Source of the DNA: an uncultured Anaeroplasmataceae bacterium
Lineage (GTDB): Bacteria; Bacillota_I; Bacilli_A; Acholeplasmatales; Anaeroplasmataceae
Direction: 5' to 3'
DNA length: 64,000 nucleotides
Assembly: GCA_944325035.1 (NCBI GenBank)
Contig: CALUYM010000001.1
Coordinates: 248,001-312,000 of the forward strand
The notes below the pieces were generated by a model. The model searched no databases. It saw only the letters and a program-made list of their open reading frames with translations, and was not told the origin of the DNA. A program made the position numbers and the translations under genes. Of this stretch, positions 51,161 through 59,548 are shown one piece after another. Each line of letters starts with the position of its first letter. Position 1 is the first letter of the stretch.

Positions 51161-51187
51161 TATGAAAAAGTCGTGGAAGTGTTATAT

Positions 51188-52438
51188 ATGAAAAATAAAT
51201 TAAACTTAAATGGTTTATTAACATTAATTTTTTTAATTTTATTTTTATTGAATTCTTTCTCAGCAAGTTTAATGAGGCAATTTAATTATTTGAACCATCC
51301 TAACTTATCACTTGGAATAATTTTTAGATTTTTAAGTATTATTTCATTTATTTTAATACCATTAATTCTTTTATTCAATATAGACAAAGCTAAAAGATGT
51401 TTAATTTGTATTTCTTTACCATCAACTATATTAGCTTTCTTTTTCATTCCTCAATATGAAAGAATTAATTCCTTAAGTACTTTTGATTTGACCTCATACT
51501 TATTGTTAAATTTTTTTAAAGTATTTATATGCATTTACATTATTATTAAAGAACCGAATAAGAAAAATCTTTTGTTTAATTGTAAAAGTATACCATTTTT
51601 ACTAATAGTTATTGGACTTAGTTTACCGCTAAATATATTTCATTTACTCCCTTTTAAAAATAATAAACTTTTTATTTATCAATTTTTTAAACCTTGGTAT
51701 TTTATTTTTCTAATAACATTCATTTTATCTGCAATATTCACTTTTAAATATTTAAAACAAAAAAATATGGACTATGTAGAGAAAGTCTTATTTATTCTTT
51801 CTTTAGCTATGCTAATGCATTTATTTGAAAGATTTAGCTTTGTAAGAACTAGACCATATCAAACTGCAATAGATATAGTAGGAGCATTACCTTTTTATGT
51901 ATGTAGTTTTGGAACGCTATTATTGCCATTTGCTATTTATTCAAAAAATGATATTTTTCGCAAACTCATCTTTTTAATTAATGCTCCAGGAGCAATTATC
52001 GTTTTTGTGCAGCCATCTATGAATAATGTATCTATTTTTGATTATGATGTGACATATTTTATCTATAATCATATTTTATTATTTATAACATCTCTATCAT
52101 TATCATTATTATTTAAACAGAAAATGACTATTCGAGGAATGATAAAGCCTCTATCAGTAAGTTTGTTAGTGTATTTTTCTTTTATATTTGTTTTAAATGC
52201 TATTTTTGCCAATTTTTGGATATATGATCCTAATTTTTCATATGTTGCAAAATCTCCTATACCTGCTGATTTTGTTTGCAATCAGCACATTCGTTTAGGT
52301 AAAGCTATTTTTTATCCATTTTATATACTGCTTCTTGTAATGGTACACTTCACAATTAGCATGATTACTCTTTTCATATATAAGATTTGCTTAAGACTTA
52401 ATAAAAAGCAAAATCTTCTAAAAACAGTTAATAACTAA
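51188..52438 (+). CDS. YwaF-like multi-pass membrane protein
   Basis: 416 residues with about ten to twelve hydrophobic segments. The second half contains LPFYVCSFGTLLLPFAIYSKN and a later YNHILLF helix, the pattern of the YwaF/TIGR02206 family; the first half is an additional set of helices. Function unknown. ATG 51188 follows GGAAGTG; an upstream in-frame GTG lies in that site. Monocistronic with its own terminator overlapping the 3' end. Confidence 0.7.
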   Translation: MKNKLNLNGLLTLIFLILFLLNSFSASLMRQFNYLNHPNLSLGIIFRFLSIISFILIPLILLFNIDKAKRCLICISLPSTILAFFFIPQYERINSLSTFDLTSYLLLNFFKVFICIYIIIKEPNKKNLLFNCKSIPFLLIVIGLSLPLNIFHLLPFKNNKLFIYQFFKPWYFIFLITFILSAIFTFKYLKQKNMDYVEKVLFILSLAMLMHLFERFSFVRTRPYQTAIDIVGALPFYVCSFGTLLLPFAIYSKNDIFRKLIFLINAPGAIIVFVQPSMNNVSIFDYDVTYFIYNHILLFITSLSLSLLFKQKMTIRGMIKPLSVSLLVYFSFIFVLNAIFANFWIYDPNFSYVAKSPIPADFVCNQHIRLGKAIFYPFYILLLVMVHFTISMITLFIYKICLRLNKKQNLLKTVNN

Positions 52439-52604: not shown

Positions 52605-53597
52605 ATGAAAAACAGAAAAAAATTTGTCAAATCTTTAGGAACATTAGGTGCAGTTGCGTGCTTAGGATTAGGATTAGTTGCATGTAACGGGGATAATCCG
52701 TCAACTTCTCAAGGTGATTCTAATCAAAGTACCAATTCAAACTTTGATACAAGTAAAACTATCAAACTTTATACAAGAGATAGAGCAAGCGGAACTAGAG
52801 ATGGTTTTTTCACAGGAATTGGTTTTGAAGAAGCTAAAGCAGATAACACAAAACTTCGTAATGGATATGTAGAAGTAGCTACAAACGGTGATATGATTAC
52901 TGCGGTAAAAAATGATGAATATGGTATTGGTTATGTATCTTTATCATCTTTAGAAAACTCTGGTGTTAAAGGATTAATATATGAAGGAGTTGAACCTACA
53001 GTAGATAATGTTATTAATGAATCATATAAATTAACTAGAAATTTTAACTATTGTATTCGTTCAACATACCAAGATCCGCGTGTTGAAGAATTAGTAGATG
53101 CTTTTATTGCCTATATGAATACTTATGAAGGACAATCTACTATTGAATCAGAAGGAGGAATTATTAAAACTCCTGCTGAACAATCATGGCAAGAAATTAA
53201 ATCACAATATTCAGTGATAACTGAAGATACTAAAGGTATTACTGTTAAAATTGGTGGTTCAACTTCAGTTAAAAGTATTGTGGACGAACTAGTAACTGAG
53301 TTTAATGCAATTGTAAAAGGCGGTGCTAAATTTGAATATAACGGAACTGGTTCAAGTGATGCATATAAAGGAATTGTAGCATCTGAGAGTGATGCTAAAG
53401 CATTACATATTGGTTTTGCATCAAGAGAATTTAAAAGTGATGAGGTTTTAACAACTGAACAAAAAGGCACTATGTGTACAGATGCGATTGTTCCAGTTGT
53501 TAATATTAAAAATCTAATAACACAAGTTACTGCTTTACAGTTAAAAGCAATGTACGGTGTAGATGGAAATATTTCGAAATGGAGCGACGTTAAGTAG
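52605..53597 (+). CDS. pstS: Phosphate-binding lipoprotein PstS, apparently circularly permuted
   Basis: 330 residues; lipobox LGLVAC with Cys27, then a Ser/Asn/Gln linker. Residues ~50-205 match the second half of ordinary PstS (LYTRDRASGTRDGFF, the phosphate loop; YGIGYVSLSSLENSGVK). Residues ~210-330 match its first half (VKIGGSTSVKSIVDEL, YNGTGSSDAYKGI, HIGFASREF, then NLITQVTALQLKAMYG and SKWSDVK, the point where the normal protein enters its second half). All phosphate-contacting motifs are present but in swapped order. It delivers phosphate to PstCA. AAAGGAGA precedes the ATG. Confidence 0.92.
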   Translation: MKNRKKFVKSLGTLGAVACLGLGLVACNGDNPSTSQGDSNQSTNSNFDTSKTIKLYTRDRASGTRDGFFTGIGFEEAKADNTKLRNGYVEVATNGDMITAVKNDEYGIGYVSLSSLENSGVKGLIYEGVEPTVDNVINESYKLTRNFNYCIRSTYQDPRVEELVDAFIAYMNTYEGQSTIESEGGIIKTPAEQSWQEIKSQYSVITEDTKGITVKIGGSTSVKSIVDELVTEFNAIVKGGAKFEYNGTGSSDAYKGIVASESDAKALHIGFASREFKSDEVLTTEQKGTMCTDAIVPVVNIKNLITQVTALQLKAMYGVDGNISKWSDVK

Positions 53598-53600
53598 TTT

Positions 53601-54548
53601 ATGATTAGTGCAACTTTTGAACAAAAAGTTGGTAGAAAAACGGTTATAGATAAGGTATTGAGATATATGTTTATGGCAATTGCAGTATTATGTTCAATGG
53701 CAATTGCCATTATTGCTGTCTTTATTTTTTATCGAGGAAGTCTACCATTTATTAAAAATTATCAAATTGATGGTCAAAATTACCATGTAAACTTGTGGCG
53801 TTTTTTAACAGGAAATATTTGGTTTCAACCACCGAATTTATATGGCGCCGGATTTATTATTTTGAATACACTATATGTGACCTTTTTATCTTTAGTATTA
53901 GCTGTCCCTATTTCAATTTTAACAGCATTATTTATAGTTAGAATTGCTCCAAAAAAGATAGGAAATATTTTGAATTCAGTAATTGAATTACTAGCAAGTG
54001 TTCCTTCAGTTATTTATGGTCTTTTTGGTGTAGGTGTAATAAATGTAATGGTAAAAAATATCTCAAATGCAGTTGGTTATCAGTCAGCAGGAGGATTATC
54101 AGTTTTATCTACAGTTTTAGTTCTTGCAATGATGATTATGCCAACTATTACGATGGTATCTGTCACTACAATTAAGTCTGTTAAACAAGAATTAATTACT
54201 GGATCTCTTGCATTAGGAGCATCACATGCTCAAACAAATTACAAAGTAGTTTTAACATCTGCAAAATCAGGTATTTTTTCAGGGATAATTTTAGGTGTTG
54301 GTCGTGCATTAGGGGAAGCTACTGCTGTATCAATGGTATGTGGTAACTCTGGGGCAGGTTTTACTTTAAATATATTTGATACAACTAGCACACTAACATC
54401 AACAATGTTATTAGGCTTACATGAAACATCAGGTGTCGATTATGATATTCGTTTTAGTGTTGGTATTCTTTTAATTGTAATTATTATTGTTACAAATGTC
54501 ATTTTAAATACAATAAAAAATAGGATTGGTAAAGTTTATGCAAGATAA
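53601..54548 (+). CDS. pstC: Phosphate ABC transporter permease PstC
   Basis: 315 residues, about six membrane helices. The first helix (FMAIAVLCSMAIAIIAVFIFY) is followed by a periplasmic-side segment, and the coupling region reads SLALGASHAQTNYKVVL, with GRALGEATAV downstream. It forms the phosphate channel with PstA. No clear ribosome binding site precedes ATG 53601, 3 bases after pstS, so coupling is likely. Confidence 0.95.
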   Translation: MISATFEQKVGRKTVIDKVLRYMFMAIAVLCSMAIAIIAVFIFYRGSLPFIKNYQIDGQNYHVNLWRFLTGNIWFQPPNLYGAGFIILNTLYVTFLSLVLAVPISILTALFIVRIAPKKIGNILNSVIELLASVPSVIYGLFGVGVINVMVKNISNAVGYQSAGGLSVLSTVLVLAMMIMPTITMVSVTTIKSVKQELITGSLALGASHAQTNYKVVLTSAKSGIFSGIILGVGRALGEATAVSMVCGNSGAGFTLNIFDTTSTLTSTMLLGLHETSGVDYDIRFSVGILLIVIIIVTNVILNTIKNRIGKVYAR

Positions 54549-55821
54549 TAATCAAACAAATGAGATTAAAAATATAGAAAAAAATAAAAAAATGAATGCT
54601 AAACAATCTGTTAAAAGAATTCAAACTGTATCGTGGATTTTTAATGGTATTACAGGACTATTTTCATCAATAAGCTTTGTTATTCTAATTATTCTATTTG
54701 TTTATATTTTTAAAAATGGATTTAGTTCACTTTCATTTAATACAATCGTAAGTGATTATAATTCAAGTGCATATTTTGGGACTGTCACAAGAGATGAAAA
54801 TTCACGTATTTTTGATTTGCCTGATGAAGAAGATGGAGTTTTGTTTTCTAAATATTGGGGAGTCGGCTTATCTTATGGAACTGATTTAAATGGTGATGAA
54901 GTTATAATTTTTAAATATGTTGATAATGAATCTCCATTTAAAGAAATGGTAAATCACAATAATAATGATGAACCTTCTTCGTTAGATACAGGAATGGTTT
55001 TTAAAAGAATCACCGTTGTAGAGCGTGATTCAGGTAGGACAAGAGTATATAATTCTAAAACTGATTTAAAGACGATTGTTACGGCATTAGATAATACTGA
55101 TAATGTTAAAGAAATCTATTTTCAAAGTCTTGGTGGAGGAATTAGAGGTTCGATAGTAACTACTCTATATTTAATTCTTTTAACTTTAGTAATTGTAATT
55201 CCTTTTGGTGTATTAGCAGCAATCTATTTAGCTGAATATGCTCCTCGTAATAAATTTACAAATGTTGTAAGAACAATGATTGATATGATAAGTGGAATTC
55301 CTTCTGTAATTTTTGGTTTAGTATCAATGATTGTATTCGTACCATTTGTAAGCAGTATAACAGGAAAGACTGGTGGTAGTATTATGGCTGGTGCTTTAAC
55401 TCTTTCAGTAATGCTATTGCCGGTAGTTATTCGTACAACCGAAGAAGCCATTAATACTATCCCCAAAACATACCGTGATGCATCATTAGCACTTGGTGCA
55501 AGTAAAACAGAAACTACATTTAAAGTAATCCTTCCAAATGCATTACCTGGTATTTTGACTTCAGTTTTATTATGCATTGGTCGTATCATTGGTGAAAGTG
55601 CAGCCTTAATTTTTGCCATTGGAACTATAATTCAAGATAAAATTTCTATAACAAGTTCTTCAACAACCTTGGCTGTTCACATTTGGACTGTCATGAGTGG
55701 TGATAAACCAAATTATTCGCAAGCATGTGCGATTAGTATTGTCATTTTAATAATTGTACTTTTACTTAATATTTTGGTAAAATTAATAGGTAAACGTTTG
55801 AATCGATTTGAGGTAAAATAA
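54538..55821 (+). CDS. pstA: Phosphate ABC transporter permease PstA with long external loop
   Basis: 427 residues, against ~280-300 for ordinary PstA. After the first helix ([14 protein letters not shown]), residues ~55-195 form an extra hydrophilic, probably extracellular domain ([20 protein letters not shown]), before the permease core with [25 protein letters not shown], the EAA-like [17 protein letters not shown] and [15 protein letters not shown] 54538 overlaps the end of pstC by 11 bases; an upstream TTG is rejected. The added domain might contact the permuted PstS. Confidence 0.93.
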
Positions 55822-56570
55822 TGAAAACAGTATTTGAAGTAAAAAATTTAGATTTAAAATATGGTGAAAAACATGTTTTAAAAGATTTAAACATTGATTT
55901 ATATGAAAAGCAAGTTACGGCTTTTATCGGTCCATCTGGTTGTGGTAAGTCAACATTCTTGCGTTGTTTAAATCGCATGAATGACTTGGTAGATTCTTGT
56001 AAAATAACAGGTTCTTTAAAATATGAAGGAGAAGAAGTTAAAGATATTAATCCGATGATTTTAAGAACAAATGTCGGAATGGTTTTCCAACAACCTAATC
56101 CATTCCCGATGTCAATTTTTGACAATATTGCTTATGGCCCTCGTTGTCATGGTATTAAAGACAAAAAACGTTTGCAAGAAATTGTAGTTAATTCTTTAAA
56201 GAAAGCTGCTTTATATGATGAAGTTGCTGATCGATTAAAAGATTCAGCACTTGCTTTGTCAGGTGGACAGCAACAACGTCTATGTATAGCACGTGCTATT
56301 GCAATGGAACCAACTGTTTTATTAATGGATGAGCCTACATCAGCACTTGATCCAATTGCAACTTTAAAAATTGAGGAATTAATTAGTGAATTAAAAAAGG
56401 ATTATACAATAATAATTGTTACGCATAACATGCAACAAGCCACTCGTATTAGTGACTATACAGCCTTTTTTATGATGGGTGAAATCGTTGAATATGCAAA
56501 AACAGATGAATTATTCAAAAATCCTAAACAAAAGAAAACAGAAGATTATATTACAGGAAGGTTTGGTTAA
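55821..56570 (+). CDS. pstB: Phosphate ABC transporter ATP-binding protein PstB
   Basis: 249 residues. Walker [10 protein letters not shown], the PstB-typical [11 protein letters not shown]-loop [15 protein letters not shown], signature [15 protein letters not shown], Walker [13 protein letters not shown] and [13 protein letters not shown]. Start overlaps the pstA stop by one base. Confidence 0.98.
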
Positions 56571-56571
56571 A

Positions 56572-57207
56572 ATGAAAATTGATATTGAATTAGAAGAATT
56601 AGTAAAATTATTATTAAAGATGGCTCAGATTGTTGAAGAAAACCTTAAAAAAGCTTTTGCTTTTTATAAAGGTGAAATTGAAGATTGTAGTATAGACGAT
56701 GATATAGTTGATAAAATGGAACGTCAAATTGAGGAAACATGTCTTGATATTATGCTTCGTGAGCGTCCATTTGCTAAAGATATGCGTGAGTTATCAGGTA
56801 TCTTAACATTAGTTTCAGATATTGAAAGATTAGGAGATCATGCTGAAGATATTTATAATTTATCAGTTCGACTTCATAAATTAGGAAATTTTAATATTCA
56901 AAGTGTAGATAATATGTATGAAAAAGCTATGAAAATGGTTCATGATGCTATTATTAGTTTTATCAATAAGGATGAAATTTTAGCTACAAAAGTTATTGAT
57001 TCAGATGATTTAATTGATGAATTATATTTAAAAGAAATTAATCATATTATTGATTTAGACAATTCAAACGAAATTTCAAGCGAACTTGCTATTTTAACAA
57101 CACTAGTGGTAAAATATATAGAGAGAATCGCTGATCATTCAGTTAATATAGCTGAATGGGTTATTTTCTTAATAAGAGGATTCTATAAAGATAAACAAAT
57201 TTTCTAG
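56572..57207 (+). CDS. phoU: Phosphate signalling protein PhoU
   Basis: 211 residues of two three-helix bundles with the repeated metal-binding pattern (VSDIERLGDHAEDIYN and VKYIERIADHSVNIAEW). PhoU links Pst transport state to the PhoR kinase. ATG 56572 follows AGGAAGG; the frame continues upstream into pstB but that start has no site. It lies one base after the pstB stop. Confidence 0.96.
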   Translation: MKIDIELEELVKLLLKMAQIVEENLKKAFAFYKGEIEDCSIDDDIVDKMERQIEETCLDIMLRERPFAKDMRELSGILTLVSDIERLGDHAEDIYNLSVRLHKLGNFNIQSVDNMYEKAMKMVHDAIISFINKDEILATKVIDSDDLIDELYLKEINHIIDLDNSNEISSELAILTTLVVKYIERIADHSVNIAEWVIFLIRGFYKDKQIF

Positions 57208-57219
57208 GAGTTTAAGCAT

Positions 57220-57879
57220 ATGGACTTTTTAATTTATTCAATTGAAGATGACCAAAATATCGCAAAAATTATCAACAAAACACTATCCAATCAAGGTTTT
57301 ATTGTTAAATCATTTTATGATGGGTATTCTTTTTTCAAGGCGCTTGAAAAAGAGATTCCCAATATGATTTTATTAGATATGATGTTACCTGATATCAGTG
57401 GAGCAGAAATTTTAAAACGTGTTCGTGCTAACGAAATATATGATGATGTCGATATAATTATTATATCTGCAAATCATATGCTTATGGATAAAGTTGATGG
57501 TCTTGATTTAGGGGCGGATGATTATATTGAAAAGCCGTTTGATATTTTAGAATTAATTTCAAGAGTAAATGCTAAGTTTCGCCGTCTTAAAAGACAAACA
57601 ATTTATGTTTCAGGTGACTTAACACTTGATTCGTTAAAACATGTTTGTACATATAAAAATGAAAAAGTCCAATTGACATTAAAAGAATTTCAAATTCTTG
57701 AATTATTATTAAAAAATAAAGGGAATATCGTTACTAGAGATGAAATACTTTTAAAAATTTGGGATGAAGATAAAGCATTTCAAACTAGAACGATTGATAT
57801 GCATATTCGCTCAATTCGTAAGAAAACGAGTGATGATTTAATTCAAACTATTTATGGTGTTGGATACCAATTAAACTGA
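57220..57879 (+). CDS. phoP: Response regulator, OmpR/PhoP type
   Basis: 219 residues. A receiver domain with acidic pocket EDD near residue 9, phospho-acceptor Asp in ILLDMMLPDISG and Lys in DYIEKPFD, then a winged-helix DNA-binding domain (LTLKEFQILELLLKNKGNIV ... TIDMHIRSIRKK). Place within the pst operon indicates PhoP. It probably binds the TTTACA repeats before pstS, making the operon autoregulated. Confidence 0.93.
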   Translation: MDFLIYSIEDDQNIAKIINKTLSNQGFIVKSFYDGYSFFKALEKEIPNMILLDMMLPDISGAEILKRVRANEIYDDVDIIIISANHMLMDKVDGLDLGADDYIEKPFDILELISRVNAKFRRLKRQTIYVSGDLTLDSLKHVCTYKNEKVQLTLKEFQILELLLKNKGNIVTRDEILLKIWDEDKAFQTRTIDMHIRSIRKKTSDDLIQTIYGVGYQLN

Positions 57880-57880
57880 T

Positions 57881-59548
57881 ATGAAAAGAAAATTTATCAC
57901 AATTAATATCTTAGTAAGTTTTTTATCTTTATCTATATTTGTCTTTCTTCTTAGCTTTATAATAAAAGATTTTTATAATCGTAGTATAGAACATGAAATC
58001 ACTGGCTATTTGAATGTGATTTTAGAAGTATATGAAGATGATGAGAAATCCTCGGCTGATATTTTATTAAAAGCTGATGATAAAATTCGTATTACATTCA
58101 TTGATAAGAGTGGCAAAGTAATCTATGATACTAAAAAGATTAGTCATGATAACCACTTAAATCGACCTGAAATAGAAGAATTAGGTAAAATTGTTTATCG
58201 TGATTCGGATACAATTTTAAAAGAATGTGTTTATATTGCTGGAATGAAAAATAATACATATATTCGTATTTCAATCGAAAAAAAATCCATATTTACATTT
58301 TTTTCATCACTTTTTTTAGGAGCTGCAATTATTTTAATTGTAATTTTAGTTTTATCAATTATTTTTGATAATTATTATTATAAGAAAATGATGAAACCCT
58401 TGCAAAAAGAGATTGCGAAACTGGGACAAATAGTTGGAAATGATAGCGATGGATTAGATGATATTCACCAATTAAGTACCAGAATTGATAAGGTTCATTC
58501 ATTAATTGATGAAAAAATTGAGAGTTTAGAAACGGAAAAAAATAAGCTCAATTATATAATTGAACACATGAATCAAGGCTTGATTATCATATCTGGGGAT
58601 GGTAAGGTCTTAATCAGTAATAAATATGCATTAAATTTATTAGAATATTATAATGATGATTACATAGGCAAAAATTATGTGTACTTACTTCATAATTTTA
58701 ATATTACTGATGTTATTGATAAAGCATTCATCACGCCTTTTAATGAAAATAAGATTATAAAACAAAATGAAAAATATTATTCAGTTTCGATAATTTCTTT
58801 AGAAGGCAGTTTTGCAAGTGTTGATAAGAAAAATGGAATCGCAATCTTTATATTAGATATATCTGAGCAAAAACGAATTGAGCAGATAAAAACTGATTTC
58901 TTTCAAAATGCTTCGCATGAACTAAAAAGTCCACTTACTACCATCTTAGGTTATCAACAAATGATTCAAGCTGGAATTATTAGTGATGAAGATGAAATAA
59001 AAAAAGCGACAGAAAATACTATTAAAGAGGCGAAACGCATTAATAATATTGTTATTGAAATGCTTGAATTATTTAAATTAGAAAGTAAACTATCTAGTTT
59101 TAAAGAAACTTTAAGTATTAGCAATTGTATTGAATCACTTACTAATTCTGTTATTCCGCAGCTTGAACAAAGAAATATTAGTTTTCGCTTTGAAGGAGAA
59201 AATTTTAATGTTTTAATGAATAAAGAAGATTTAACAAGGCTATTAAGAAATATAATTGATAATGCTATTAAGTATAATAAGGACAATGGTTTTTTAACAA
59301 TTAGTTTACGAGCCAATTTGTGTATAATTAAAGATGGAGGAATTGGTATTCCTAAAATTTATCAAGATCGTATTTTTGAGCGTTTTTTCCGAGTTGATAA
59401 GGCAAGAAGTAGAGCAATAGGTGGGACAGGCTTAGGATTGGCGATAGTAAAACATATTTGTTTAAATTATGGTATTTTTATCTCAGTTGAAAGTGAAGAA
59501 GGATTAGGTACAACCTTCACACTTGATTTTAAAAATGTTATTATTTAA
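57881..59548 (+). CDS. phoR: Phosphate regulon sensor histidine kinase, PhoR type
   Basis: 555 residues. Two membrane helices (~8-28 and ~140-165) flank an extracellular sensor; a HAMP-like and PAS region (~165-335, EHMNQGLIIISGDGKVLISN) follows, then HisKA with phospho-acceptor H346 in ASHELKSPLTTILGY and HATPase motifs NAIKYN, GGIGIP and GGTGLGLAIVKH. The start lies one base after the phoP stop. Domain layout is that of B. subtilis PhoR. Confidence 0.94.
   Translation: MKRKFITINILVSFLSLSIFVFLLSFIIKDFYNRSIEHEITGYLNVILEVYEDDEKSSADILLKADDKIRITFIDKSGKVIYDTKKISHDNHLNRPEIEELGKIVYRDSDTILKECVYIAGMKNNTYIRISIEKKSIFTFFSSLFLGAAIILIVILVLSIIFDNYYYKKMMKPLQKEIAKLGQIVGNDSDGLDDIHQLSTRIDKVHSLIDEKIESLETEKNKLNYIIEHMNQGLIIISGDGKVLISNKYALNLLEYYNDDYIGKNYVYLLHNFNITDVIDKAFITPFNENKIIKQNEKYYSVSIISLEGSFASVDKKNGIAIFILDISEQKRIEQIKTDFFQNASHELKSPLTTILGYQQMIQAGIISDEDEIKKATENTIKEAKRINNIVIEMLELFKLESKLSSFKETLSISNCIESLTNSVIPQLEQRNISFRFEGENFNVLMNKEDLTRLLRNIIDNAIKYNKDNGFLTISLRANLCIIKDGGIGIPKIYQDRIFERFFRVDKARSRAIGGTGLGLAIVKHICLNYGIFISVESEEGLGTTFTLDFKNVII

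Follow-up and report, generated by a model that had tools for sequence, protein, structure and literature searches.

The gene at positions 52605-53597 of the window (by which we mean the whole 64,000-nucleotide stretch analysed) encodes a PstS protein in which the two halves of the chain are swapped: the half that normally comes second (C) stands first and the normal first half (N) stands last. We are almost certain that this is the permuted PstS of the adjacent PstCAB importer, inherited in that form, and that the form arose, most likely, via duplication. We also consider it likely that within a single bacterial order, that of the window, the chain ends of PstS have shifted three times or more (from the ordinary order to C-N, from C-N to N-C, and from a permuted form to a third cut in the C half), by way of tandem dimers and trimers that survive today. 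This would amount to a natural reversal with its intermediates, each form being the sole Pst binding protein that these searches found in its genome.

The ORF is intact, lies on the forward strand, and specifies a lipoprotein of 330 amino acids followed by a stop codon. Another frame or the reverse strand was considered and rejected, since the minus strand is full of stops in the frame read. In a profile search of the 1.55 Mb genome this ORF was the only PstS-like gene found. It is the first gene of a pstS-pstC-pstA-pstB-phoU-response regulator-histidine kinase operon (Table 1). The sequence-only reading that first drew attention to the gene took this pstCAB-phoU-phoPR context as confirming its function, and the context is sound: PstC, PstA, PstB and PhoU all score above curated cut-offs, and the regulator and kinase genes lie downstream. 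It is of note that the PstA of the window has 431 residues, and that PstA in the related operons that were read is also about 400 residues long (397-413). Upstream of pstS, a membrane protein gene (51173-52438) has a match to the Pfam family TMEM164, and fatty-acid genes (by inspection) and a biotin/lipoate ligase gene are also upstream.

Table 1. The pstS operon of the window and the parts of the permuted protein (positions are those of the window, residues those of PstS)
Feature	Position	Strand	Basis
pstS, permuted: lipoprotein signal, then 'second' half, then 'first' half	52605..53597	+	Profile, PDB, model, rotation scan
Signal peptide and lipobox, residues 1-27	52605..52685	+	Cys27 invariant in 20 relatives
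Low-complexity tether, residues 28-48	52686..52748	+	pLDDT mostly <50 (residues 1-43)
C half, residues 49-185	52749..53159	+	Corresponds to about 144-276 of ordinary PstS 4GD5
RDRASGTR phosphate loop (predicted), residues 58-65	52776..52799	+	R58, S62, G63, T64 invariant in 20-sequence alignment
New linker, old C-terminus to old N-terminus, residues 186-212	53160..53240	+	Alignments, model
N half, residues 213-330	53241..53594	+	Corresponds to residues 38-145 of the 4GD5 chain sequence
GGSTSV phosphate-contact loop (predicted), residues 217-222	53253..53270	+	Sequence, 20-sequence alignment
NGTGSSD motif, residues 246-252	53340..53360	+	Sequence, 20-sequence alignment
GFASRE motif, residues 270-275	53412..53429	+	Sequence, 20-sequence alignment
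pstC, permease	53601..54548	+	TIGR02138 222.7 bits, cut-off 196
pstA, permease, long extra segment before the permease domain	54526..55821	+	TIGR00974 233.4 bits, cut-off 193, match from residue 201
pstB, ATPase	55821..56570	+	TIGR00972 413 bits, cut-off 343
phoU (start codon by inspection)	56572..57207	+	TIGR02135 143.7 bits, cut-off 130
PhoB/PhoP-type response regulator	57220..57879	+	Database matches
PnpS/PhoR-type sensor kinase	57881..59548	+	Database matches

The swapped order is seen with profiles, with PDB sequences and in a rotation scan. The family profile TIGR02136, which presumes N-C order, matches the protein in two pieces: profile positions 161-291 come first, on residues 50-185, and positions 27-157 come after, in the last part of the gene. 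The two stretches total 94.7 bits (5.6e-27), which is below the NCBI cut-off of 206.6 bits. PF12849 matches above its cut-off (2.2e-16), with profile positions 7-125 on residues 209-328. In phmmer alignments the Clostridium perfringens structures 4Q8R and 4GD5 match in two pieces in reversed order, whereas Streptococcus pneumoniae 4H1X matches in a single piece (48-330 with 6-265). When the mature sequence was rotated against four ordinary PstS proteins, the local score rose from 105-151 unrotated to 174-228 rotated (shuffled null about 39 +/- 6), the best cut falling at about residue 205-213. Against 4H1X the native order was best (score 224), and the PstS of Acholeplasma granularum likewise gave its best fit without rotation. 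The halves are thus in C-N order, far above chance, as had been claimed from the order of the motifs; all four ordinary proteins fitted best after rotation, not in normal order.

Residues R58, S62, G63, T64, S219, S250 and S273, which come from both halves, are invariant across 20 permuted sequences and are predicted by analogy to belong to the phosphate site. The R-x3-S-G-T spacing is that of E. coli PstS. Could the protein nevertheless be a permuted solute-binding protein that has switched from phosphate to another ligand? It falls below the TIGR02136 cut-off and is only 25% identical to 4H1X, as such a protein might be, but the low score is due at least in part to the permutation itself because the match is in two pieces. 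Moreover, the gene heads pstCAB-phoU, no second PstS was found in the genome, and all the phosphate-site motifs are kept. A change of ligand is therefore very improbable.

The fold was approached with an AlphaFold2 model (pLDDT 88, pTM 0.80; core pLDDT about 95, signal and tether disordered) that was built on 20 sequences, all permuted relatives, and is not independent of them. Foldseek found one strong match to this model in the PDB, 4H1X (E 5.6e-24, TM 0.86 by target length), the next match being at 7e-5. With VIA-align the model superposed on 4H1X over 253 of 257 residues (Z 28.9, rmsd 2.3) but on the ordinary PstS structures 4GD5, 4Q8R, 1TWY and pneumococcal PstS1 (4EXL) over about 133 residues, i.e. 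one half (Z 9-11). Because the match to 4H1X extends over the whole length and that to ordinary PstS over one half, the model supports a true circular permutant with one PstS-type binding domain. The alternative outcome of such a superposition, a pair of incomplete domains, was not seen.

The sequence-only reading placed the end of the protein precisely at the point where an ordinary PstS passes into its second half. This is correct for the sequence but not for the lobes, which are discontinuous in ordinary PstS; thus the N domain of SAR11 PstS consists of residues 24-111 plus 279-324 (PMC12421899). Given this layout, we expect the cut in the window protein to fall within lobe II rather than at the hinge, namely in the loop that leads from the W-s-D-V helix to the strand preceding SGTR. 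The old termini, both in lobe I, are bridged by the new linker.

The sequence-only reading knew of no described permuted PstS and implied that the form was unique. Neither point stands. 4H1X, an experimental structure that has been in the PDB since its release in 2012, is itself permuted and is collinear with the window protein in both sequence and structure, although its permutation was apparently not remarked upon. We found no paper describing the permutation of 4H1X, or any permuted PstS, in the open-access literature. A paper on the pneumococcal Pst1 and Pst2 systems covers the physiology of Pst2 and, in the part of the text examined, terms the two systems evolutionarily distinct; that part makes no mention of the topology of PstS2 (PMC4913102). 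The permuted branch of PstS is, then, widespread and has a solved structure, yet has apparently gone unremarked.

A search for other PstS proteins with the same order, as the sequence-only reading had advised, was productive. Among 296 sampled genomes of the window's class, 111 matched a permuted alignment at a threshold of 1e-10, a query that favours permutants and gives no fair ratio to ordinary PstS. By hand count, 89 of these have a collinear C-N protein, 20 have ordinary N-C only, one has a fragment, and one has a third form. Matches were found in 72 of the 160 genomes of the window's order, and the majority of these hits were collinear C-N proteins. Named carriers from a contig motif scan (which used motifs of the window's clade and yields a taxon list biased to Acholeplasmatales-like genomes) include Acholeplasma granularum, Paracholeplasma vituli and Candidatus Izimaplasma ZiA1. 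With 4H1X as query, full-length one-piece matches were found in Monoglobus pectinilyticus (Clostridia, 47.5%) and Treponema saccharophilum (Spirochaetota, 43%). In both, the gene is on a plasmid, adjoins pstCAB-phoU, and is annotated only as 'substrate-binding domain-containing protein'. This distribution bears on whether the window gene could be an assembly artefact or chimaera, with two halves of PstS genes misjoined in what is a draft genome of 10 contigs. The same order recurs in dozens of assemblies made independently, some of them complete chromosomes or from cultured strains, and in the crystal structure 4H1X, which refutes an artefact and leaves it practically no chance of being the explanation.

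Two further observations were made on permuted genes. Among the IMG/VR contigs L112 (3926-4930) and L111, a virus-assigned contig has a permuted pstS next to genes for ribonucleotide reductase and to a further gene that resembles a binding protein; this pstS is possibly a phage-borne auxiliary gene. In G216, G507 and CP076021 (L077) the permuted pstS is frameshifted or its profile match contains a stop, and these may be decaying genes, match overruns or sequence errors.

Not all forms are simple permutants. There are also other ARRANGEMENTS: 200 distinct ORFs comprised 156 of C-N order, 29 N-C, seven C-N-C-N, one C-N-C-N-C-N and one C'-N-C'', the rest being fragments. The C-N-C-N-C-N trimer is a single ORF of 910 amino acids (L185/L037), and the tandem dimers, likewise single ORFs, include L012, L013, L016, L017, L186 and L007. 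The units of a dimer are often near-identical in DNA, the C lobe at 99% or more in three cases (up to 99.8%) and the N lobe less so, pointing to duplication or conversion in the recent past. A frameshift interrupts one of the dimers, from a complete genome.

Of the N-C proteins, three nest deep within the permuted clade whether the tree is built from the N lobe, the C lobe or both: L026 and L027, which come from the genus of the window, and L233, which comes from its family. Are these ordinary ancestral PstS proteins from which the permutants nearby were derived, with no reversal at all? Their order is the ordinary one, and TIGR02136 covers L027 in one stretch. However, a tree that groups the three with ordinary PstS is 201 log units worse (AU p 3e-6), and one that excludes them from the permutants of the main and f15 groups is worse by 89 log units (AU p 5e-5). 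The AU tests thus reject an ordinary ancestry, which we regard as improbable, and details of the chains also argue against it. All three match the C-lobe model, in which the final 20 positions represent the C-to-N bridge, as far as position 158. Permutants do the same, but in 25 ordinary PstS proteins the match stops at 130-140. The N-to-C junctions have 8-13 residues, compared to 7-18 in dimer junctions and 1-6 in ordinary PstS, and in two of the three (L026 and L027) an FDTSK-type tether motif lies between the lobes. These junctions resemble the permutant tether and the dimer junctions, not ordinary PstS, and look like fossils of a permutant. L026, L027 and L233 are therefore probably a natural reversal of a circular permutation. 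For two of the three, the operon was followed downstream of pstS, where by inspection it continues with pstC, pstA, pstB, phoU and the regulator. The window protein is not the sister of its N-C congeners L026 and L027 in the tree, so that these give no evidence of a change in place, and they may owe their position to transfer or to old paralogy.

A third cut is found in one genome only (G235). The locus L184:546-1472 (-) encodes a lipobox, the last two helices of the C half, the N half, and then the first part of the C half (C'-N-C''); it ends LKRPFMFVTRY-stop, and pstC begins 13 bases after the stop. Two TAA codons lie inside a longer profile match, but a pseudogene was rejected because the ORF is intact, with its lipobox, and runs to within this distance of pstC. 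L184 is collinear in order with the middle of the trimer and with that of all dimers tested; in the tree it is sister to the C-N protein of A. granularum. Its model (pLDDT 87, pTM 0.81), built on dimer middles, matches residues 34-244 of 4GD5 at Z 23.0 over 211 residues, but 4H1X over 152 only.

We propose that the window gene supplies the adjacent PstCAB importer with its phosphate-binding lipoprotein in permuted form. The chain would run from lipid anchor and tether through the SGTR half, a 27-residue bridge and the GGSTSV/NGTGSSD/GFASRE half to its end at the tryptophan helix. On the model, it would fold to the normal two-lobed shape of PstS; it would then close on phosphate with ligands from both halves and dock on PstCA, its lipid anchor now presumably on lobe II instead of lobe I. 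The arrangement would have been inherited from an old permuted lineage whose first origin was most likely permutation by duplication, that is, in-frame tandem duplication followed by loss of the outer halves. The same process would still be under way in the window's order, where living intermediates of permutation by duplication appear to be present. Free trees separate the 4H1X group from the window's clade (with group f15), but a single clade of the two is not rejected (AU p 0.23 and 0.25). The cut region that they share fits one origin but could have recurred.

Is the permutation itself functional? The authors of the TpMglB-2 study raised this idea for their permuted glucose-binding lipoprotein (PMC4990184), and anchoring by lobe II might suit a tethered binding protein in a Gram-positive or wall-less cell. 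In line with this, the permutants are lipoproteins, relatives of TpMglB-2 likewise occur in treponemes and Gram-positives (PMC4990184), and one permuted PstS is in a Treponema. That said, L184 and the reversed N-C forms are lipoproteins too, and their operons are of the same kind, so that neither the order nor the anchored lobe looks strictly required, and ordinary N-C PstS is common in the window's class. We consider a functional advantage rather unlikely.

Family profiles miss permuted PstS although it is common, as the score of the window protein illustrates, and relatives beside pstCAB are under-annotated. Because it is both missed and vaguely annotated, tables of PstS presence and absence, and sequence trees blind to the order of the halves, can err there. 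Within the window's order, permuted, tandem, reversed and third-cut forms occur in like operons and make up a natural series. It could be used to ask if transport depends on the chain order of a Venus-flytrap binding protein and on where its anchor sits, and its real intermediates could serve to test the model of permutation by duplication.

Ordinary PstS (E. coli; C. perfringens 4GD5 and 4Q8R; TIGR02136) has halves homologous to those of the window protein, the same phosphate motifs and the same pstCAB-phoU context, but its order is N-C with both termini in lobe I, and alignment in one stretch is impossible. S. pneumoniae PstS2 (SP_2084, 4H1X, of the Pst2 system) is also a Pst phosphate-binding protein and has the same half order and the same cut region; it differs in being only about 25% identical, in its shorter C-to-N linker, and in belonging to a separate branch. 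TpMglB-2 (Tp0684), termed 'type Ic', is another natural circular permutation of an ABC binding protein, but it has a type I fold and a sugar ligand and is affected in the N lobe (PMC4990184), and it is not homologous at this level. Finally, permutation by duplication, as described for saposin/swaposin and DNA methyltransferases, predicts functional tandem intermediates (PMC3320104), which are met here as dimers and a trimer; unlike the known cases, PstS has been cut at several sites and has probably regained its original order, all within one bacterial order.
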